From the IMG/VR virus record IMGVR_UViG_3300036817_000262, positions 1 to 23,553 of that record: a DNA stretch of 23,553 nucleotides. One strand, written 5' to 3'. Shown piece by piece: positions 7,224-22,384 of the stretch. Below the pieces are notes generated by a model. That model worked only from the letters and a program-made list of their open reading frames with translations, was not told the origin of the DNA and did no database searches. Position 1 is the first letter of the stretch, and every line of letters begins with the position of its first letter. A program made the translations under genes and the position numbers. Origin of the DNA: a virus.

Positions 7224-8958
7224 AATGTACACCGGGAGCGATTTCGGTTTCGTCGGTCAATCCTACGAAGCACCGATGGTGCTGCAGGATACGCAGCGCT
7301 TGATCAATTGGTATGTCGAGATGGATCCGAACCCGGAGGCGAAGGAGCAGCTCGCGCTCTTAGGGTGCCCCGGACTGCTTGCCGTGGCCTCGACCCTCCC
7401 GGGGCAGGTGCGCGGCATGTGGGTCCTCCCAGGCTCCCAGGCAGCACTCGTCGTCACGGGCGCGACCGTGTGGCTCATGACCATCACGGTCCCGGCAACC
7501 GCCAACTCGCTGCCGAAGTATGCGACGCGCCAAGTGGGGAACCTCTTAACCAACGCAGGCCCGGTCTGCATCCGGGACAACGGGGTGCAGCAGAACGGTC
7601 TCGGTGGCTTTGCCGTGATTGTCGATGGCACCTACGGGTATTACTACCTGCTGTCGGGTGTGCAGCAGACCGTGACCTTTGGTGCCGCGACGACCTTTGG
7701 CAGCAACGTGATTGGCTTCCCCGGTGTGCTGCCAGCGGGTCTCATCGTATCGACCGCAGCGACCTTGAGCGATACCGGTGGTGCGATCGCTCCCGGCACG
7801 GTATTCACCGCAATCAATTCCACTTCGTTGACCGCGACGATGTCGAAGAACGCAGGCATCAGTGTGGCGAGCGACACGATGACCTTGACGATCCCGCCCT
7901 TTGGACAGATCACGGATCCCGGATTCTTAGGTGCCCAGCGCATCGCGTTCATCGAGGGGTGGCTTGTTTTCAATCTGCCGAACACGCGCACGTTTTATTC
8001 CACGGGTCCGACTCCGTACCAGATGATCTTCCCGGGTGCGTTCTTCGCTCTGAAAGACTCCTCGACCGACAACTTGATCACGCTGCAGGAGAACAACCGC
8101 GAGCTGTGGCTGATCGGCGAGCGCACTGCAGAGGTCTGGTACAACGCGGGCGGCATCAACTTTCCCTTCCAGCGTATCCCGGGTGTGGGTCCGCAGGTGG
8201 GCTGCGCTGCGGTGTACTCATTGACGCGCGTCGGGACGGAACTGGCGTGGCTCGCACGCAATGAGCAGGGACAGAACATCGTCGTCATCACTGAGCAATA
8301 TTCGTACAAGCGCATCTCCACCCATGGTGTCGAGCAGGCGATCGCGAGCTATCCCGTCGTGAGTGATTGCATCGGGTACGGGTATGAAGAGGCGGGACAC
8401 GGGTTTCTGGTGATGGTGTTCCCCACAGCGGATGTCACTTGGGTGTTCGATATCACGAGCGGCGCATGGCATCAGCGTGCGAGCTTTCAGTCAACGACCG
8501 GACAGTTCCACCGGCATCGCGGCAACTGCTTCATGGATTTCGGCGACGTGCGACTGGTGGGTGATTACCAGACCGGACAAATCCATCGCATGTCGCGCGA
8601 TTACTACGACGACAACGGTGCGCCATTGGTGTGCGTGCGACGTACGCCGCATGTGTGGACCAAAGCGAATCGAGAGCGCGTGTTCTTCTCGCAACTCCAG
8701 ATCGAGTTCACGCCCGGTGTGGGCCTGCAGGTAGGACAAGGCTCCGATCCGCAGTTGATGTTGCGCTGGAGTGATGACGGTGGTTTTACGTGGAGCAATC
8801 AGCACTGGGTGACGATCGGTAAAGCGGGACAGACCCGCAATCGTGCGATCTTCCGGCAGTTGGGCCGCGCACGCGATCGGGTGTGGGAGGCAACGTTCTC
8901 CGATCCCGTACAGCGCGACATCATCGGCGCGACATTGTTTGCGGAACCGACTGCATGA
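7189..8958 (+). CDS. Packaged DNA stabilisation protein, P22 gp10-like tail hub
   Basis: The ORF gives 589 residues from the ATG at 7189. ATGs at 7207 and 7225 are equally good starts (no clear Shine-Dalgarno for any), and all overlap or abut the gp4-like stop at 7223. Features of the P22 gp10-type family include a PGLLAVASTLPGQVRGMWV early strand region, LITLQENNRELWLIGERTAE then VWYNAGG (about 303-328), and a propeller-like series ending FSDPVQRDIIGATLFAE. In P22 this protein forms the hexameric hub next to gp4 and seals packaged DNA. Residues about 160-235 hold a T/A/G-rich insertion (FGSNVIGFPG..LPAGLIVSTAATLSD, SLTATMSKNAG) akin to the gp4-like insertion. The family call is firm; the start is not. 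Confidence 0.82.
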   Translation: MRVGSRMAVSIEMYTGSDFGFVGQSYEAPMVLQDTQRLINWYVEMDPNPEAKEQLALLGCPGLLAVASTLPGQVRGMWVLPGSQAALVVTGATVWLMTITVPATANSLPKYATRQVGNLLTNAGPVCIRDNGVQQNGLGGFAVIVDGTYGYYYLLSGVQQTVTFGAATTFGSNVIGFPGVLPAGLIVSTAATLSDTGGAIAPGTVFTAINSTSLTATMSKNAGISVASDTMTLTIPPFGQITDPGFLGAQRIAFIEGWLVFNLPNTRTFYSTGPTPYQMIFPGAFFALKDSSTDNLITLQENNRELWLIGERTAEVWYNAGGINFPFQRIPGVGPQVGCAAVYSLTRVGTELAWLARNEQGQNIVVITEQYSYKRISTHGVEQAIASYPVVSDCIGYGYEEAGHGFLVMVFPTADVTWVFDITSGAWHQRASFQSTTGQFHRHRGNCFMDFGDVRLVGDYQTGQIHRMSRDYYDDNGAPLVCVRRTPHVWTKANRERVFFSQLQIEFTPGVGLQVGQGSDPQLMLRWSDDGGFTWSNQHWVTIGKAGQTRNRAIFRQLGRARDRVWEATFSDPVQRDIIGATLFAEPTA

Positions 8959-9287
8959 CGCGCACGGTACCGACTTACACGACGCCCTGGACTCCGGGGA
9001 ATAAAAACGATTCGACGTGGTATCGCTATTTTCAAGCGATCGAATTGGGGGAGCCTCCCGGTGGCGAAGTCATCGTCACGCCAACCGCATCACCGTTTGT
9101 ATTCACCGCACCGAAGCAGGGATACATGGTGATCTCGGGCGGCACCGTCACTTCGATCATGATCTCTCGCACACCACCGTCGTATGTGCTGACAGATCAG
9201 ACCTCGGGAGTGTTCCCACTGTCGCAGAGTGATCTTTTGAAGGTCACCTACACCGCAGCTCCAGCGATGACGTTCTTTCCAACATGA
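8955..9287 (+). CDS. Hypothetical small beta-rich protein
   Basis: This 110-residue ORF starts at the ATG inside the ATGA shared with the gp10-like stop. A longer in-frame version from 8883 would run deep into the gp10-like gene and is rejected. The N-terminus (TRTVPTYTTPWTPGNKNDST) is polar and is followed by WYRYFQAIELGEPPGGE. Beta-type segments (SPFVFTAPKQGYMVISGG, SIMISRTPPSYVL) come next. A TSGVFPLSQSDLLKVTYTAAP end suggests a small virion-surface or tail-accessory protein. No family is recognised. Its stop overlaps the SET-domain start (ATGATGA), so it is probably coupled to it. Confidence 0.65.
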   Translation: MTRTVPTYTTPWTPGNKNDSTWYRYFQAIELGEPPGGEVIVTPTASPFVFTAPKQGYMVISGGTVTSIMISRTPPSYVLTDQTSGVFPLSQSDLLKVTYTAAPAMTFFPT

Positions 9288-9667
9288 TGACGTACGAAGA
9301 GATGATCAAGGCCGAAGGCTGGGAGACGCTGGAGAAAGCGTTGCGACCGTTCTGGGAAACACTCGATGACGTGCGACCGATGCCGGGACACTACGTCGTG
9401 CGACCCTCGCCGATCCACGGATTCGGACTCTTCGCATCGCAAGATCTTGACGCGGGCGAAGTCATCGGGCCTGCCCGCATCAACGGCATTCGCTCTGAAC
9501 TCGGTCGCTACTGTAACCACAGCTCAGATCCCAATGGCAAAGCGGTGCGTGACAACAATGAGGATCTGTACTTTGTCGCTCGCAGACCGATTCTCAAAGA
9601 TGTCGAGATCTGCGTCGATTACCGGCAGGTGTTTGCCGTGAACAAGGAACTCCACGTATGCAGATAA
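9284..9667 (+). CDS. Minimal SET-domain protein, putative protein-lysine methyltransferase
   Basis: This is a 127-residue protein (127 from ATG 9284, or 126 from ATG 9287). Residues 38-51 (VVRPSPIHGFGLFA) carry the SET N-motif with the GxG SAM-binding loop. Residues 54-61 (DLDAGEVI) match the following 'dI..GE.I' strand. NHSSDPN at 78-84 is the SET NHSxxPN pseudoknot motif. YFVARRPI (96-103) and VDY (111-113) match the 'xxAxrdIxxGEExxxDY' end, though the second GEE is replaced by DVE. The segment between the two halves is very short (about 12 residues), so this is a minimal SET. Expected activity is SAM-dependent methylation of lysine; the substrate is unknown. It sits in the late operon where P22 has gp26/gp14 and overlaps the cupin-like gene by 10 bp, suggesting a joint role on a virion or host protein. 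Confidence 0.8.
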   Translation: MMTYEEMIKAEGWETLEKALRPFWETLDDVRPMPGHYVVRPSPIHGFGLFASQDLDAGEVIGPARINGIRSELGRYCNHSSDPNGKAVRDNNEDLYFVARRPILKDVEICVDYRQVFAVNKELHVCR

Positions 9668-18529: not shown

Positions 18530-18712
18530 TCAAGTTTCTGGTTCGTTCTCTTGATTCTTGATTTTGAGGTAGATCTCTTCACGATGCACAGTGACATCGC
18601 GTGGCGCTTCGACGCCAAGTCGAACCTGTGAGCCGTGCACACCTAGAACAACCACCTTGATGTCGTTACCTATGATCACGGTCTCACCCACTCGTCGTGT
18701 CAGTATCAACAT
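18530..18712 (-). CDS. csrA: CsrA-family RNA-binding translational regulator (phage-encoded)
   Basis: This 60-residue protein begins [15 protein letters not shown] and continues [20 protein letters not shown] then HREEIY, a full-length CsrA/RsmA match. The RNA-contact residues L4, R6, V42 and R44 of E. coli CsrA are all present. CsrA homodimers bind GGA motifs in mRNA leaders and usually block or stabilise translation of metabolism, biofilm and motility genes. The C-terminal tail after Y48 is short and charged. The gene has a near-perfect AAGGAGGT ribosome site 3 bases before the ATG, starts 15 bp after the triple-HTH gene, and its stop directly abuts the tailspike stop on the other strand. 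Carriage by a phage suggests control of host or phage mRNAs; which ones cannot be seen here. Confidence 0.95.
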
Positions 18713-18743
18713 ACGACCTCCTTGGAATTAACCTCCAGTCAAC
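18713..18743 (-). promoter_or_regulatory. csrA leader with two GGAGG elements, candidate CsrA autoregulation site
   Basis: On the - strand the csrA leader reads ...TGGAGG, about 10 bases, CAAGGAGG, TCGT, ATG start. The proximal element is both the Shine-Dalgarno and a match to the CsrA core pattern CANGGANG. The distal GGAGG lies in the last codons and stop of the upstream gene. Two GGA sites about 15 bases apart are within the range a CsrA dimer can bridge. TGGA and TCCA could also pair around the distal site. Confidence 0.5.
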
Positions 18744-19525
18744 GTGCGCAAGGCCTGCAGCACGAGCAAGTGCTGCTCTTCAAACCGTTTGATCTTACCC
18801 TCCTGCAGATCCCCATACATCGCACTCTCCGCATGCTTCAAGAGCGCCACTGCATCGCGCATGCGGATGGAGAGAACCGGCGCAGTCTCTTCAACATTGT
18901 GATGTCGCGCTAATCCTCCCTTACGCCCTGCCGCCACTAGCTGCCTGCGTCGCTTAGCAGCTTTGCTAGTCCAGTTGTAAATATTGGAGACATTGATCTT
19001 CAGATCCTTGGCAATGTCCTTTGCCAACTCGCCTGCTTCGAATCGTTCTATTGCCGCCTCTTTGAATCGATCCGTGATGCTTGGTTTTTTGGCAGGCATT
19101 TTTTTGTGCGAACGTTTCTTCGACATGAGTTCCTTCTTCTTGGTGGGATGAGTGTTGGGAGTGCCTCTGAGAGCATTTTTTTGCCACTGATACAGCATGC
19201 TGTTGCTGATTTTGAATTCTCGCGCGAGAGCCATGGCAGTCTCTCCCGCTTGCATGCGACGCACGACTTCCTGCTTGAACGCTGTGGAGTACACGCGGGT
19301 GCCTTTAGGTCCCATGACGAAACCCGTCTCTGGAATCTCTGTCTTCAGATCGCGACCCCGTACCCAGGAGCGAATGTGGGTCGCGTGTGCACCCGTCTCT
19401 TGAGCGAGAGCTGTTGCGGTCTCCCCTTTCTTGATGCGCTCAATGATCCTTAACTTGAAAGCGTGCGAATATTTTCGCTTACCCTGTGGTGTTAGCGTTA
19501 CGCCGTCTGGCAACGGGTTTGGCAT
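18728..19525 (-). CDS. Protein with three tandem transposase-type helix-turn-helix domains
   Basis: This is a 265-residue basic protein. Three homologous HTH units of the IS3/IS911 OrfA (homeodomain-like) type start at about residues 18, 78 and 149. Each has a conserved F, a GE(T/L)A turn, a helix A.(A/D)(L/I)A, and a final W. The F-W distance is exactly 31 in all three (F23-W54, F83-W114, F154-W185). Units 1 and 2 are exactly 60 residues apart. A lysine-rich linker (about 128-148) precedes unit 3. The C-terminal 80 residues include a basic RRRQLVAAGRKGG segment and a predicted helix. There is no DDE catalytic domain, so this is not a transposase but probably a multi-site DNA-binding regulator. 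GAGGA precedes the ATG. The gene overlaps the zinc-ribbon gene by 47 bp and precedes csrA. Confidence 0.78.
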   Translation of the reverse strand: MPNPLPDGVTLTPQGKRKYSHAFKLRIIERIKKGETATALAQETGAHATHIRSWVRGRDLKTEIPETGFVMGPKGTRVYSTAFKQEVVRRMQAGETAMALAREFKISNSMLYQWQKNALRGTPNTHPTKKKELMSKKRSHKKMPAKKPSITDRFKEAAIERFEAGELAKDIAKDLKINVSNIYNWTSKAAKRRRQLVAAGRKGGLARHHNVEETAPVLSIRMRDAVALLKHAESAMYGDLQEGKIKRFEEQHLLVLQALRTLTGG

Positions 19526-19766
19526 ATGCGGTCCTCATAGTTTTTTCACGTTTTGCTTTTCGATACGCAGGCAGCTCTTGATCCTCATGACGCTCCTCGA
19601 TGTGCGCGATTCGGAACAATCCTTTCTCGCGCCGATAGCGGGCCTCAATGATTTCGGCGGGCGTTTTTTGGTCCCAGTAGTACATCGCGTGGCGGCACTT
19701 GATGCAGTACTTGCGGCGGGAATTGACAGTCAATGTTTCGGTGCACCTGAACGTTGGGCACTTCAT
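19479..19766 (-). CDS. Small zinc-ribbon-like protein, first gene of the csrA operon
   Basis: This is a 95-residue basic protein. The N-terminal part has cysteines C3 and C8, then C21-x2-C24 (YCIKCRHAMYYW), a plausible four-cysteine zinc site. The rest is rich in R, K and E, with a REKGLFRIAHIEERHED helix and a very basic C-terminus. No named family is recognised; it could be a small nucleic-acid-binding protein or regulator. It has the strongest ribosome site in this operon (AAGGAGGAGGACCG before the ATG), which also contains three consecutive GGA triplets and may be a CsrA target. Its 3' end overlaps the HTH gene by 47 bp in another frame. Confidence 0.68.
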   Translation of the reverse strand: MKCPTFRCTETLTVNSRRKYCIKCRHAMYYWDQKTPAEIIEARYRREKGLFRIAHIEERHEDQELPAYRKAKREKTMRTAYAKPVARRRNANTTG

Positions 19767-19808
19767 CGGTCCTCCTCCTTACTTGTTGAAGATTCAAGGC
19801 AGCTTACT

Positions 19809-19820
19809 CTCGAATTCGAG
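19809..19820. promoter_or_regulatory. 12-bp perfect palindrome, operator candidate (leftward)
   Basis: CTCGAATTCGAG is a perfect 12-base palindrome. It sits in the spacer of the weak leftward promoter candidate, about 45 bases upstream of the zinc-ribbon start. A second, smaller inverted repeat (TTGAA-GA-TTCAA, 19786-19797) follows downstream. It could be a repressor site for the csrA operon. Confidence 0.4.
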
Positions 19821-19833
19821 CGGTTCAACCGTC

Positions 19834-19871
19834 GAATGTGATTGAATGTGACTTCCAGGCAAATCATGTGA
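19834..19871 (+). repeat. Helically phased short direct repeats (GAATGTGA and ATGTGA)
   Basis: GAATGTGA occurs at 19834-19841 and again at 19844-19851, a 10-bp period. The ATGTGA core recurs at 19866-19871, a further 20 bp on. All three would face the same side of the helix. They could be arm-type integrase or excisionase sites or regulator boxes. Confidence 0.5.
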
Positions 19872-19886
19872 ACCATTTGTTACCAA
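19872..19886 (+). repeat. 15-bp direct repeat, copy 1 (ACCATTTGTTACCAA)
   Basis: This is identical to 20056-20070, 184 bp apart, in the gene-free region just upstream of the integrase. It may be an integrase arm site, a regulator box or an att-related core. It abuts the third ATGTGA element. Confidence 0.8.
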
Positions 19887-19953
19887 GGGCACCCACAAGT
19901 GATTGATTTAAAAGGTAGTTTTTTCTCCTCTTGTTCAAGCCAGATGTCTGATT

Positions 19954-19972
19954 TACCATGTACATCATGGTA
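19954..19972. promoter_or_regulatory. 7-bp inverted repeat with 5-bp spacer, operator candidate (rightward)
   Basis: TACCATG (19954-19960) and CATGGTA (19966-19972) form a perfect inverted repeat around TACAT. It coincides with the -10 of the weak rightward promoter candidate, so a dimeric repressor bound here could control the integrase. The half-site TACCA also appears in the 15-bp direct repeats nearby. Confidence 0.5.
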
Positions 19973-20055
19973 CTTAGTGTGAAAGACCCAGAAATCGTGT
20001 GGCAAGCAAAGGCTTATTTTCCTAGGGTTTCGTTACACTGCCATTTTCGCTTGAT

Positions 20056-20070
20056 ACCATTTGTTACCAA
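20056..20070 (+). repeat. 15-bp direct repeat, copy 2 (ACCATTTGTTACCAA)
   Basis: This is the second copy of the element at 19872-19886, ending 24 bases before the integrase ATG and just upstream of its ribosome site. A protein bound here could directly limit integrase expression. Confidence 0.8.
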
Positions 20071-20094
20071 CGTCGATTTTGAGGAGTACAAAAA

Positions 20095-21255
20095 ATGACC
20101 ATCGTTAAGCGGGGTAATTCTTTGCGCGTCGTCGTACGCGTCACTGGTCAAAAACCCGCCACCCGCACCTTCGCGAAAGATGAAAAGGCACAAGCGCTGC
20201 TCTGGGAAGAGGAGCAGAAGTTGCGGATGAATTCACGCAAGCAGTTTACCCGTGGAGTAACCCTCGGCATGCTCTGCCGTCGTTACCGCGACGAGGTCGA
20301 GAAGCCGGATCCCACTACCACCAAAGGTGAGATCGCGATGTCGAATCGTTTCGCGATCGACTTCGCCGAAACGGATCTGTCCGAGATGACGAAGAAGTGG
20401 TGGATGGACACCGTCGAGGGCTGGCACCACTTGAAGCCTTCCTCGCGCACTCGCTACATGTGGCGCATCAATGCCGTGCTGCGCGTCGCTGCCGAAAAAG
20501 AATGGAACAGTTGCAAAGTGGATTGGAAGAGTTTCTCCGAAGCGTACACAGCGCTCGAAAAAAAGGGAGCCATCGATGGTGGCGACCCGCGCGCACGTCG
20601 CGTCAGCCAAGTGGAACTCGATCTACTCAAGAATCGATACCGTGGCTCCTCCCCGCAACTGCTCGACATCATCGACTTTGCCGTGATCTTGGGATTGCGC
20701 CAGGGTGAGATCGCGAAGCTGACGTGGAGTGACATCAAGGATGCCGACACCGATGAGCCGATGCTCCTGGTCAAGAAGCGCAAGAACCCCAAGAAGAAGA
20801 TCACGGGTCTCGTGCCGCTGCTCGATGACTCGCTGCAGATCCTGCAGCGTCAACCGCGCCCGAAGGATCTGGTGTCCGATCAGCGCATCTTCCGCATGGA
20901 TGCGCAGCAGATCTACACCGCATTCCATGTGCTGGTCCGCACGCTGCAGGCCGAAGGCAAGTTGAGCAAAGCAGAAGAGGACGATCTGCGATTCCACGAT
21001 CTGCGTCACGAGGCACTGTCGCGTCTCTTCGAGCGAGGCTTCAGCATTCCCGAAGTGCAACTGGTGTCGGGACATAAGGAGTGGGAGAGTCTGAAAATCT
21101 ACACCAACTTGAAACCGAGTGGACTGCATCAGGGTCCGCTCGCGCATCAGCAGTTGATGAACGACGATCGGCAGCTTGAGAAGCTGCTTGAGAATCCGAA
21201 GCTGCGTGCGAAGTTGATTGTGCTGTTGAACTCGCAGGAGAAACGCGCAGCCTAA
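20095..21255 (+). CDS. int: Tyrosine recombinase (phage integrase)
   Basis: This is a 386-residue protein. Its N-terminal about 60 residues form a beta-rich arm-binding-type region (VKRGNSLRVVVRVTGQKPAT..F). The core-binding helical region (about 65-165) includes a KPSSRTRYMWRINAVLRVA segment. The catalytic domain has R202 (LGLRQGEI), H301-x-x-R304 (HDLRH), H327 (SGHKEW) and the nucleophile Y336 (KIYTNLKP), with K residues in the preceding beta-hairpin (LLVKKRKNPKKK). All the usual catalytic residues are therefore present. It carries out site-specific recombination between phage attP and host attB. GAGGAG lies before the ATG at 20095. It is divergent from the csrA operon, and its stop overlaps that of a HTH gene on the opposite strand. 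Confidence 0.95.
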   Translation: MTIVKRGNSLRVVVRVTGQKPATRTFAKDEKAQALLWEEEQKLRMNSRKQFTRGVTLGMLCRRYRDEVEKPDPTTTKGEIAMSNRFAIDFAETDLSEMTKKWWMDTVEGWHHLKPSSRTRYMWRINAVLRVAAEKEWNSCKVDWKSFSEAYTALEKKGAIDGGDPRARRVSQVELDLLKNRYRGSSPQLLDIIDFAVILGLRQGEIAKLTWSDIKDADTDEPMLLVKKRKNPKKKITGLVPLLDDSLQILQRQPRPKDLVSDQRIFRMDAQQIYTAFHVLVRTLQAEGKLSKAEEDDLRFHDLRHEALSRLFERGFSIPEVQLVSGHKEWESLKIYTNLKPSGLHQGPLAHQQLMNDDRQLEKLLENPKLRAKLIVLLNSQEKRAA

Positions 21256-21515
21256 GTTGAGCCGAGGGTGGCGGCGCGTCTGCGCCGCCGCCGATCCGGG
21301 CGCGGCGGTCCCGGGTTCGCCAGTTTCGCCATTCCCTCCTGCCGCCGATCCATAAAGTACTTGTCCATCACGTCACGATCGATGACGTGACTTTTCCCAA
21401 GCTTGTAGGTCGCCACCGGGAAGCGACCTTCGAGGATCGCATTCTTCGCGGACTCAAACGACATGCCAAACATCTTGCAGGCATCACGGAGTGAAATCCA
21501 AGGTTGAGTGTTCAT
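21252..21515 (-). CDS. Small helix-turn-helix DNA-binding protein, excisionase-like
   Basis: This is an 87-residue protein. Residues about 6-52 (WISLRDACKMFGMSFESAKNAI..GRFPVATYKLGKSHVIDRDVMDKYF) have the MerR/excisionase-like layout: helix-turn-helix followed by a wing ending in a HVID-type strand. The C-terminus is proline-rich then has six consecutive arginines. Being next to the integrase, it could be a recombination directionality factor (Xis), but it could equally be a regulator of the early genes. It converges with the integrase (stops overlap by 4 bp) and its start overlaps the ParB-like stop by one base (TGATG), so it is the last gene of the early leftward operon. Confidence 0.72.
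   Translation of the reverse strand: MNTQPWISLRDACKMFGMSFESAKNAILEGRFPVATYKLGKSHVIDRDVMDKYFMDRRQEGMAKLANPGPPRPDRRRRRRAATLGST
21270..21289. repeat. GC-rich perfect hairpin at the int / HTH convergent junction
   Basis: GGCGGCGC (21270-21277) and GCGCCGCC (21282-21289) form a perfect 8-bp stem with a 4-base loop, just past the integrase stop. It lies inside the arginine-run coding end of the HTH gene. No T-tract follows on either strand, so it is not a standard intrinsic terminator, but it could slow polymerase or protect mRNA 3' ends. Confidence 0.6.
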
Positions 21516-22384
21516 CAGTAGATCCTAATTTTCTGTTCATCGTCGGCGCGTATCGCGACGATGGTGCGCGTGCAGGGCTTGTTCAAATTGCGCCGTGCCC
21601 AGTTCCATCCCTTGATCACCATTCGCATGCGGATGGCGAGCGAGTACCTCGCCATCTTTTCCGCATCGCGGATGAAAGCGCTGCGCAGAATGTATTCAAC
21701 GTCAGACCGTATCAGCTCCTCGCCGCTGTACAAGCGGCGCATGAAGCGCTCTGCTTGTTCTTGATGTCGGCGCGAGAACATCTCATAGAGCGCGGTGCCG
21801 CAGCCCAATGACAACGGTCGCGACTCGGCAGGGAAGGATGCCAGGGTCTCGGCGCATTGCAGAAGGGATTTGTGCTTCTCGACGTAATCGATCACATCGG
21901 TGTTGGAGAGTTTGATCTTGCCGTGCATCACACCGAGATCGAAACGATGGCACCACTGCACGGCAGTCGCCGCAGCTTTGATGATGTACGCGGGCGAGTC
22001 ATGGAAGTACAGACAGAGCGCATCCGCACCCGTGCGTACCGCCCCGGTGTCGATCGTCTTGAAGGCTTCCGGGGTGATGCCGTACACCACCATCGATTCG
22101 ATCGGGATCCCAGCTTCGATGATCGCGAACAACCGGTGCTGACCATCCAAGATCTGCTCATTGTCCGCGATGACGATCGGCTGACCGTTCAACTGCCAGT
22201 TGCCGTTCTTGATTTCATCCGACAGGAACTCGATGTGCCGTTTGCGCAGCGGGCGATTGATCTTATTGCACTTGAGCCAGTTCGTCGCATCGGTGGGAGT
22301 GATCTTCATCACCTCGGCGACGATGTCCTTGTTGGTGCCGTAGATTTTCGCCGCATGCGGGAACTTGATGATTTTGGAATTCAT
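21515..22384 (-). CDS. ParB/DGQHR-type phage protein
   Basis: This is a 289-residue protein. Residues about 43-92 (NRPLRKRHIEFLSDEIKNGNW, NGQPIVIADNEQILDGQHRL) form a ParB/Srx-like N-terminal fold with the DGQHR signature at 80-84. This is followed by FKTIDTGAVRTGAD (108-121), an 'ID.G..R...D' element seen in many phage proteins of this type. The C-terminal part is helical with RH- and R-rich stretches and lacks an obvious DNA-binding HTH. Its role in phages is poorly defined; DNA binding or nucleotide-dependent regulation is possible. It lies in the early leftward block between a very small ORF (ATGA overlap) and the HTH gene. It should not be read as a partition protein, as no ParA gene is present in this window. 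Confidence 0.75.
   Translation of the reverse strand: MNSKIIKFPHAAKIYGTNKDIVAEVMKITPTDATNWLKCNKINRPLRKRHIEFLSDEIKNGNWQLNGQPIVIADNEQILDGQHRLFAIIEAGIPIESMVVYGITPEAFKTIDTGAVRTGADALCLYFHDSPAYIIKAAATAVQWCHRFDLGVMHGKIKLSNTDVIDYVEKHKSLLQCAETLASFPAESRPLSLGCGTALYEMFSRRHQEQAERFMRRLYSGEELIRSDVEYILRSAFIRDAEKMARYSLAIRMRMVIKGWNWARRNLNKPCTRTIVAIRADDEQKIRIY

Follow-up and report, generated by a model that had tools for sequence, protein, structure and literature searches.

The window analysed here is the entire IMG/VR record IMGVR_UViG_3300036817_000262 (23,553 bp, apparently a fragment), from a temperate soil virus of bacteria whose plus strand carries P22-like podovirus structural genes. On its minus strand lies a three-gene operon (the cassette), whose middle gene encodes a chain of three helix-turn-helix (HTH) heads, the array, which from its sequence is most likely a DNA-binding regulator of the lysogenic state. 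It belongs to an undescribed regulator family with a varying number of DNA-reading heads, kept in cassette form by temperate phages of unrelated types and adjoining the integrase wherever that flank is present. The parts are ordinary; their combination is undescribed and conserved. We favour, tentatively and with less than even confidence, a multi-head regulator of a mobile temperate-phage cassette that most likely reprograms gene expression in the lysogen, above all that of host genes, in parallel with CsrA. The operon and the neighbouring integrase are as follows.

18530–18712, minus strand: 60-aa CsrA, encoded at the end of the operon (PF02599, 1.1e–24)
18728–19525, minus strand: triple-HTH array protein, 265 aa (ORF, Pfam, AlphaFold2 model)
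18737–18868, minus strand: C-terminal helical hairpin of the array, residues 220–263, common to all members (alignments, AlphaFold2 model)
18956–19081, minus strand: HTH head 3, residues 149–190 (Pfam, AlphaFold2 model)
19169–19297, minus strand: HTH head 2, residues 77–119 (Pfam, AlphaFold2 model)
19349–19477, minus strand: HTH head 1, residues 17–59 (Pfam, AlphaFold2 model)
19479–19766, minus strand: four-Cys Zn-ribbon-like protein, 95 aa, first gene of the operon (ORF and conserved homologues)
20095–21255, plus strand: tyrosine integrase, divergent from the cassette (PF00589, 1.2e–17)

A sequence-only reading had described three transposase-type HTH units with an F-to-W distance of 31 residues in each and 60 residues between units 1 and 2, and had proposed a profile search and a structure prediction; both return three HTHs. 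Pfam HTH_Tnp_1 (PF01527) matches the protein in three separate stretches rather than one (E = 1.6e–20, 73.5 bits against a cut-off of 24.1), the F-to-W pairs (F23–W54, F83–W114 and F154–W185) are indeed 31 residues apart, and the unit starts are separated by 60 and then 71 residues. The AlphaFold2 model, built on a seven-member alignment (pLDDT 72, pTM 0.32), has trihelical HTHs at residues 21–55, 81–120 and 152–186, a beta-hairpin preceding heads 1 and 2 (the duplicated unit of 60 residues) and, at the C-terminus, a hairpin of two helices (220–241 and 250–263); because of the pTM of 0.32, the domains can be taken as modelled but not their relative placement. The hairpin matched no Pfam family above cut-off and is a possible oligomerisation or partner surface. 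Foldseek, run with the array and with its Zn-ribbon-like partner, gave no confident full-length match. The earlier claim that the chain has no catalytic domain and serves no linked transposase also holds, the DDE domains rve (PF00665) and IS66 (PF03050) being absent from the window and 14 related records in searches that detected their positive controls. With its matches to PF01527 and phrog_151, the array shares its HTH family with the IS3 OrfA and IS66 TnpA proteins (PF01527, NF047595, phrog_151), but differs from them in its three heads, its extra C-terminal domain, the lack of a transposase, and scores below the NCBIfam equivalog cut-offs (NF047595, 53.7 against 74; NF033516, 40.6 against 160). 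Of the suggestion that it is a domesticated transposon DNA-binder acting as a phage regulator, the transposase-type ancestry of the HTHs thus stands, and domestication is plausible, judged from the HTH family alone.

Single-protein searches with the array recovered no close relatives in IMG/VR or INPHARED. Relatives were gathered via the major capsid protein followed by a PF01527 search, which gave nine with arrays in one frame, and further members were added through partner and C-terminal alignments. The same architecture was found in 15 IMG/VR records including the window, carried by a family of P22-like podoviruses, a siphovirus of HK97 type (G043, which encodes a major head protein of that type and a tape measure) and a third phage (G045, with primase and helicase genes), the last two having no podovirus capsid protein. 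When bacterial genomes were searched with alignments of the Zn-ribbon-like protein and the capsid protein, neither a cassette-bearing prophage nor a host came to light. All members have the C-terminal hairpin motif, while the number of heads varies: two in G016, G025, G038 and G045, three in ten records, and six in G005 (509 aa, with six stretches matching PF13384 and five matching PF01527), such that the three-headed form, which had seemed special in isolation, is one state in a range from 2 to 6.

The heads were said to have clearly arisen by duplication, but this was not a recent event, since only 11–16 of 44 residues are identical between heads of the window chain. A tree of 41 heads from various phages, with few columns and many open forks, is poorly resolved overall, yet heads cluster in it by position, with supported clades for head 1 (four members, 97/91) and head 3 (five members, 96/94) and, for G001, G003 and G008, one clade per head position. 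Recent intragenic duplication is rejected on this tree; because the heads are orthologous by position, their multiplication predates the divergence of these phages. In the recognition region, heads at matching positions are 58% identical and heads at different positions 24%, and each head probably retains its own specificity. Since each head has a position-conserved recognition helix, one composite site is favoured over a repeated site, so that of the long or repeated operator once envisaged the former is preferred. The array would then probably read one composite site, as does the archaeal protein Cbp1, whose three tandem HTHs are aligned along one repeat (PMC10883916), and by analogy it may work most like Cbp1. 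Like the array, Cbp1 of Sulfolobales is a stand-alone three-HTH chain that arose by domain duplication and has no catalytic domain; in Cbp1 the heads line up on one repeat and a partner protein is recruited by one of them (PMC10883916), as may be the case for the array. It differs from the array in being archaeal and cellular, in binding CRISPR repeats, and in having no operon with Zn-ribbon-like and CsrA genes; phmmer found no match between the array and Cbp1 in the PDB, and the Foldseek match is weak (E = 0.21). If the specificities of the heads sum to a longer address, the array would represent a modular reader of DNA of natural origin.

The sequence-only reading had taken in neither the operon partners nor the variable head number of relatives. 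The Zn-ribbon-like gene overlaps the start of the array gene by 47 bp, and a homologue (72–100 aa) lies directly upstream of the array in 15 of 15 records, the four Cys positions being conserved among these predicted proteins; it is likewise absent in nine full-length relatives that have no array. It had no match in Pfam or NCBIfam, and none in PHROGs better than E = 0.01. The window CsrA scores above both the PF02599 and the NCBIfam csrA equivalog cut-offs. Directly downstream of the array, csrA occurs in 11 of the 15 records (in G007 across contig ends); G025 has a csrA remnant, G038 and G043 have none after the array, and in G045 csrA is located elsewhere, near int. (In that phage a predicted secreted protein, L170:5603-6355, follows the array in the place of csrA.) Phage csrA is common, with 86 INPHARED records, and the two that were checked have the gene close to the repressor, within the early region. 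Because the array is always beside the Zn-ribbon-like protein and usually beside an RNA-binding regulator, the cassette probably serves gene control during dormancy.

Two known systems resemble this arrangement in part. CsrA-linked repressors derived from transposons exert dual transcriptional and translational control of flagellin (PMC13418256), and these csrA-associated TldR loci are like the array in linking a transposon-derived DNA-binding regulator to CsrA; the TldR of the FRphi prophage is a case of lysogenic conversion. TldRs are, however, RNA-guided and TnpB-derived, as opposed to the HTH array here, and the csrA-linked ones are chromosomal (PMC13418256). On Legionella integrative elements, LvrC/CsrT likewise places a CsrA paralogue on an integrating element; these elements are conjugative, and the available text of the reports describes no HTH array or Zn-ribbon-like partner (PMC3218107, PMC5655016).

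In the podoviruses the cassette sits between the end of the late genes, which it faces, and the divergent tyrosine integrase. An integrase is present in every cassette record except one 25-kb fragment. Among near-complete podovirus relatives, nine have integrase and cassette, two the integrase only, none the cassette only, and 11 neither, an association with Fisher P = 2e–4 when the relatedness of the phages is ignored and with 2 of the nine having themselves been found through the cassette. The cassette is optional, occurring in only some relatives and in a variable slot, and is not a core gene. The tailspike–int interval of P22-like phages is occupied by gtr conversion genes common to unrelated phage types (PMC2629481); gtrABC is thus like the cassette in its slot and in being shared by unrelated temperate phages, but encodes O-antigen modification enzymes rather than regulators (PMC2629481). 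Xanthomonas phage PBR31 has a putative surface-modification gene in the slot beside int.

The divergent region between cassette and integrase, 19767–20094, contains the following candidate elements.

19786–19797, no strand assigned: inverted repeat TTGAAGATTCAA, candidate operator, between the candidate promoter and the start codon
19801–19828, minus strand: candidate operon promoter, TTGAAC, 16 nt, TAAGCT (found by eye on alignments)
19872–19886, plus strand: ACCATTTGTTACCAA, candidate integrase arm site, P side
19897–19907, plus strand: AAGTGATTGAT, candidate attP core
20056–20070, plus strand: ACCATTTGTTACCAA, candidate integrase arm site, P' side

The TAAGCT hexamer of the candidate promoter recurs in G031, L149, L150, L165 and G007; a consensus promoter scan called no promoter for the operon, and terminators were at chance level. 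TTGAAGATTCAA, taken in the window alone, is not beyond chance (P = 0.08), and stronger palindromes occupy its position in G031, L149 and L150 and in G003. The region at the partner gene's start, including the palindrome GTGTGTATACACAC next to it, is common to L149, L150 and G031, so that the promoter-side palindrome goes with the cassette; the promoter palindromes were not found elsewhere in the DNA examined of the same phages. Further out, TGTTACC-type repeats (15 bp, at 19872 and 20056) stand on either side of the conserved AAGTGATTGAT next to int, a layout of integrase arm sites and core. The repeats had been proposed as sites where the array might bind, but they follow the integrase. L149 and L150, with arrays 98% and partner proteins 99% identical and integrases only 43% identical, have different repeats (TGCTACCAG against TGTTACCCG), which assigns the repeats to the integrase, while L150 and G031, whose integrases are 63% identical, have the same repeat type and position. 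The cassette and its promoter region thus stay constant while integrase and attP are swapped. As operators of the array the 19872 and 20056 repeats are rejected, and the sequence from 19872 to 20070 is best read, with this correction, as a putative attP. Relative to the arm repeats, the putative core has the inverted orientation in G031, L150, G007, G008 and G005 and the direct one in others. A second arm-arm-core composite (TGTTACCA twice plus AAGTSATTGAT), without the other arm, was seen in early noncoding DNA at G016 21713-21757 (L123), G025 31492-31536 (L125) and G007 8885-8930 (L120), and in G016 and G007 it is near the DnaA-box-like TTATCCACA.

We propose that the heads would bind next to one another along a single composite site, every head reading a separate segment, with the C-terminal hairpin and the Zn-ribbon-like protein adding oligomerisation or partner contacts. 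The cassette would have a promoter of its own, lying ~100 bp away from the attP core; with that spacing integration would leave it whole, at the far end of the prophage from the integrase, and it could be expressed in the lysogen, where the array would reprogram gene expression, host genes first, and CsrA would act on translation in parallel. We prefer host genes as targets, given that the cassette is optional, occupies a conversion slot and occurs in unrelated phages, that csrA is usual, and that CI-like and Cro genes coexist with the array in three relatives. Dual control cannot be general, since in G038, G043 and G025 CsrA is either absent or degraded. A fuller version, in which an array of 2–6 heads reads a long composite address, the Zn-ribbon-like partner and CsrA join it in dual reprogramming of the lysogen, and changes in the number and identity of its heads retarget it, strikes us as rather unlikely in its entirety. 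If the heads do sum to such an address, the array together with CsrA would extend the recent idea of prophages and mobile elements joining transcriptional and translational control of the host.

The array might instead act on promoters of the phage itself, to maintain lysogeny, time induction or silence late genes, which we regard as less probable than action on host genes but a real possibility. It comes close behind because four relatives (G003, G008, G016 and G038) have no CI-like gene in the usual, canonical place, where the array could be the repressor, and because the window ends before that region; the tie of the array to integrase-bearing relatives also speaks for such a role, and the palindromes by its own promoter (G031, L149, L150 and G003) hint at autoregulation. 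Against it, in G005, G007 and G025 a CI-like HTH_3 gene adjoins a Cro gene, separate from the array, which is not encoded beside Cro in these relatives; promoters differ between the unrelated phages that carry the cassette; and the promoter palindromes do not recur elsewhere in the DNA examined of these phages.

It is improbable that the array serves the adjoining integrase by binding attP in an architectural or directionality role. Its position beside attP in podoviruses, the integrase linkage and the repeated motifs next door are consistent with this, but near-identical arrays accompany the divergent integrases of L149 and L150 with their different arm sequences, the L170 phage has another integrase and 77 bp before the partner gene without these repeats, and an excisionase-like gene is already present on the other side of int. 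Slightly less probable still is a chromatin-like silencer or bridger, whose several heads would bind degenerate sites and coat or loop DNA as in Cbp1–Cren7. The variable head number, the basic linkers in the sequence and the Cbp1 precedent (PMC10883916), Cbp1 being also the closest solved fold, if weakly so, fit this idea, but the position-conserved recognition helices suggest specific reading.

A small terminase subunit or packaging factor is very improbable and, as a terminase identity, rejected by position: single heads weakly match the HTHs of small-terminase PHROGs, but in G003, G005, G007, G008 and G016 another conserved protein (149–209 aa), by its position the presumed TerS, is encoded immediately upstream of the large terminase, and related phages that must also package have no cassette. 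The gene at G003 37358-37762, conserved just before the large terminase with homologues in G005, G007 and G016, has no significant Pfam match in its G003 copy, and its PBR31 homologue is annotated GroES. A functionless, decaying insertion-sequence OrfA remnant, which the IS3/IS66 accessory type of HTH might suggest, is the least probable of all, since the frame is open and, together with the partner gene and the C-terminal domain, conserved across 15 records, and there is no transposase. A defence protein was rejected, PADLOC giving only weak HTH-level matches.

Two further genes of the window were noted. A SET-domain protein (PF00856, 46.8 bits against a cut-off of 22.4) is encoded at 9284–9667 on the plus strand, amid phage tail genes. 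A strongly conserved ParB-like protein (21515–22384, minus strand; phrog_5931, 6.6e–52) adjoins the excisionase-like gene, an arrangement seen in the ten cassette-bearing podovirus records that were compared first.
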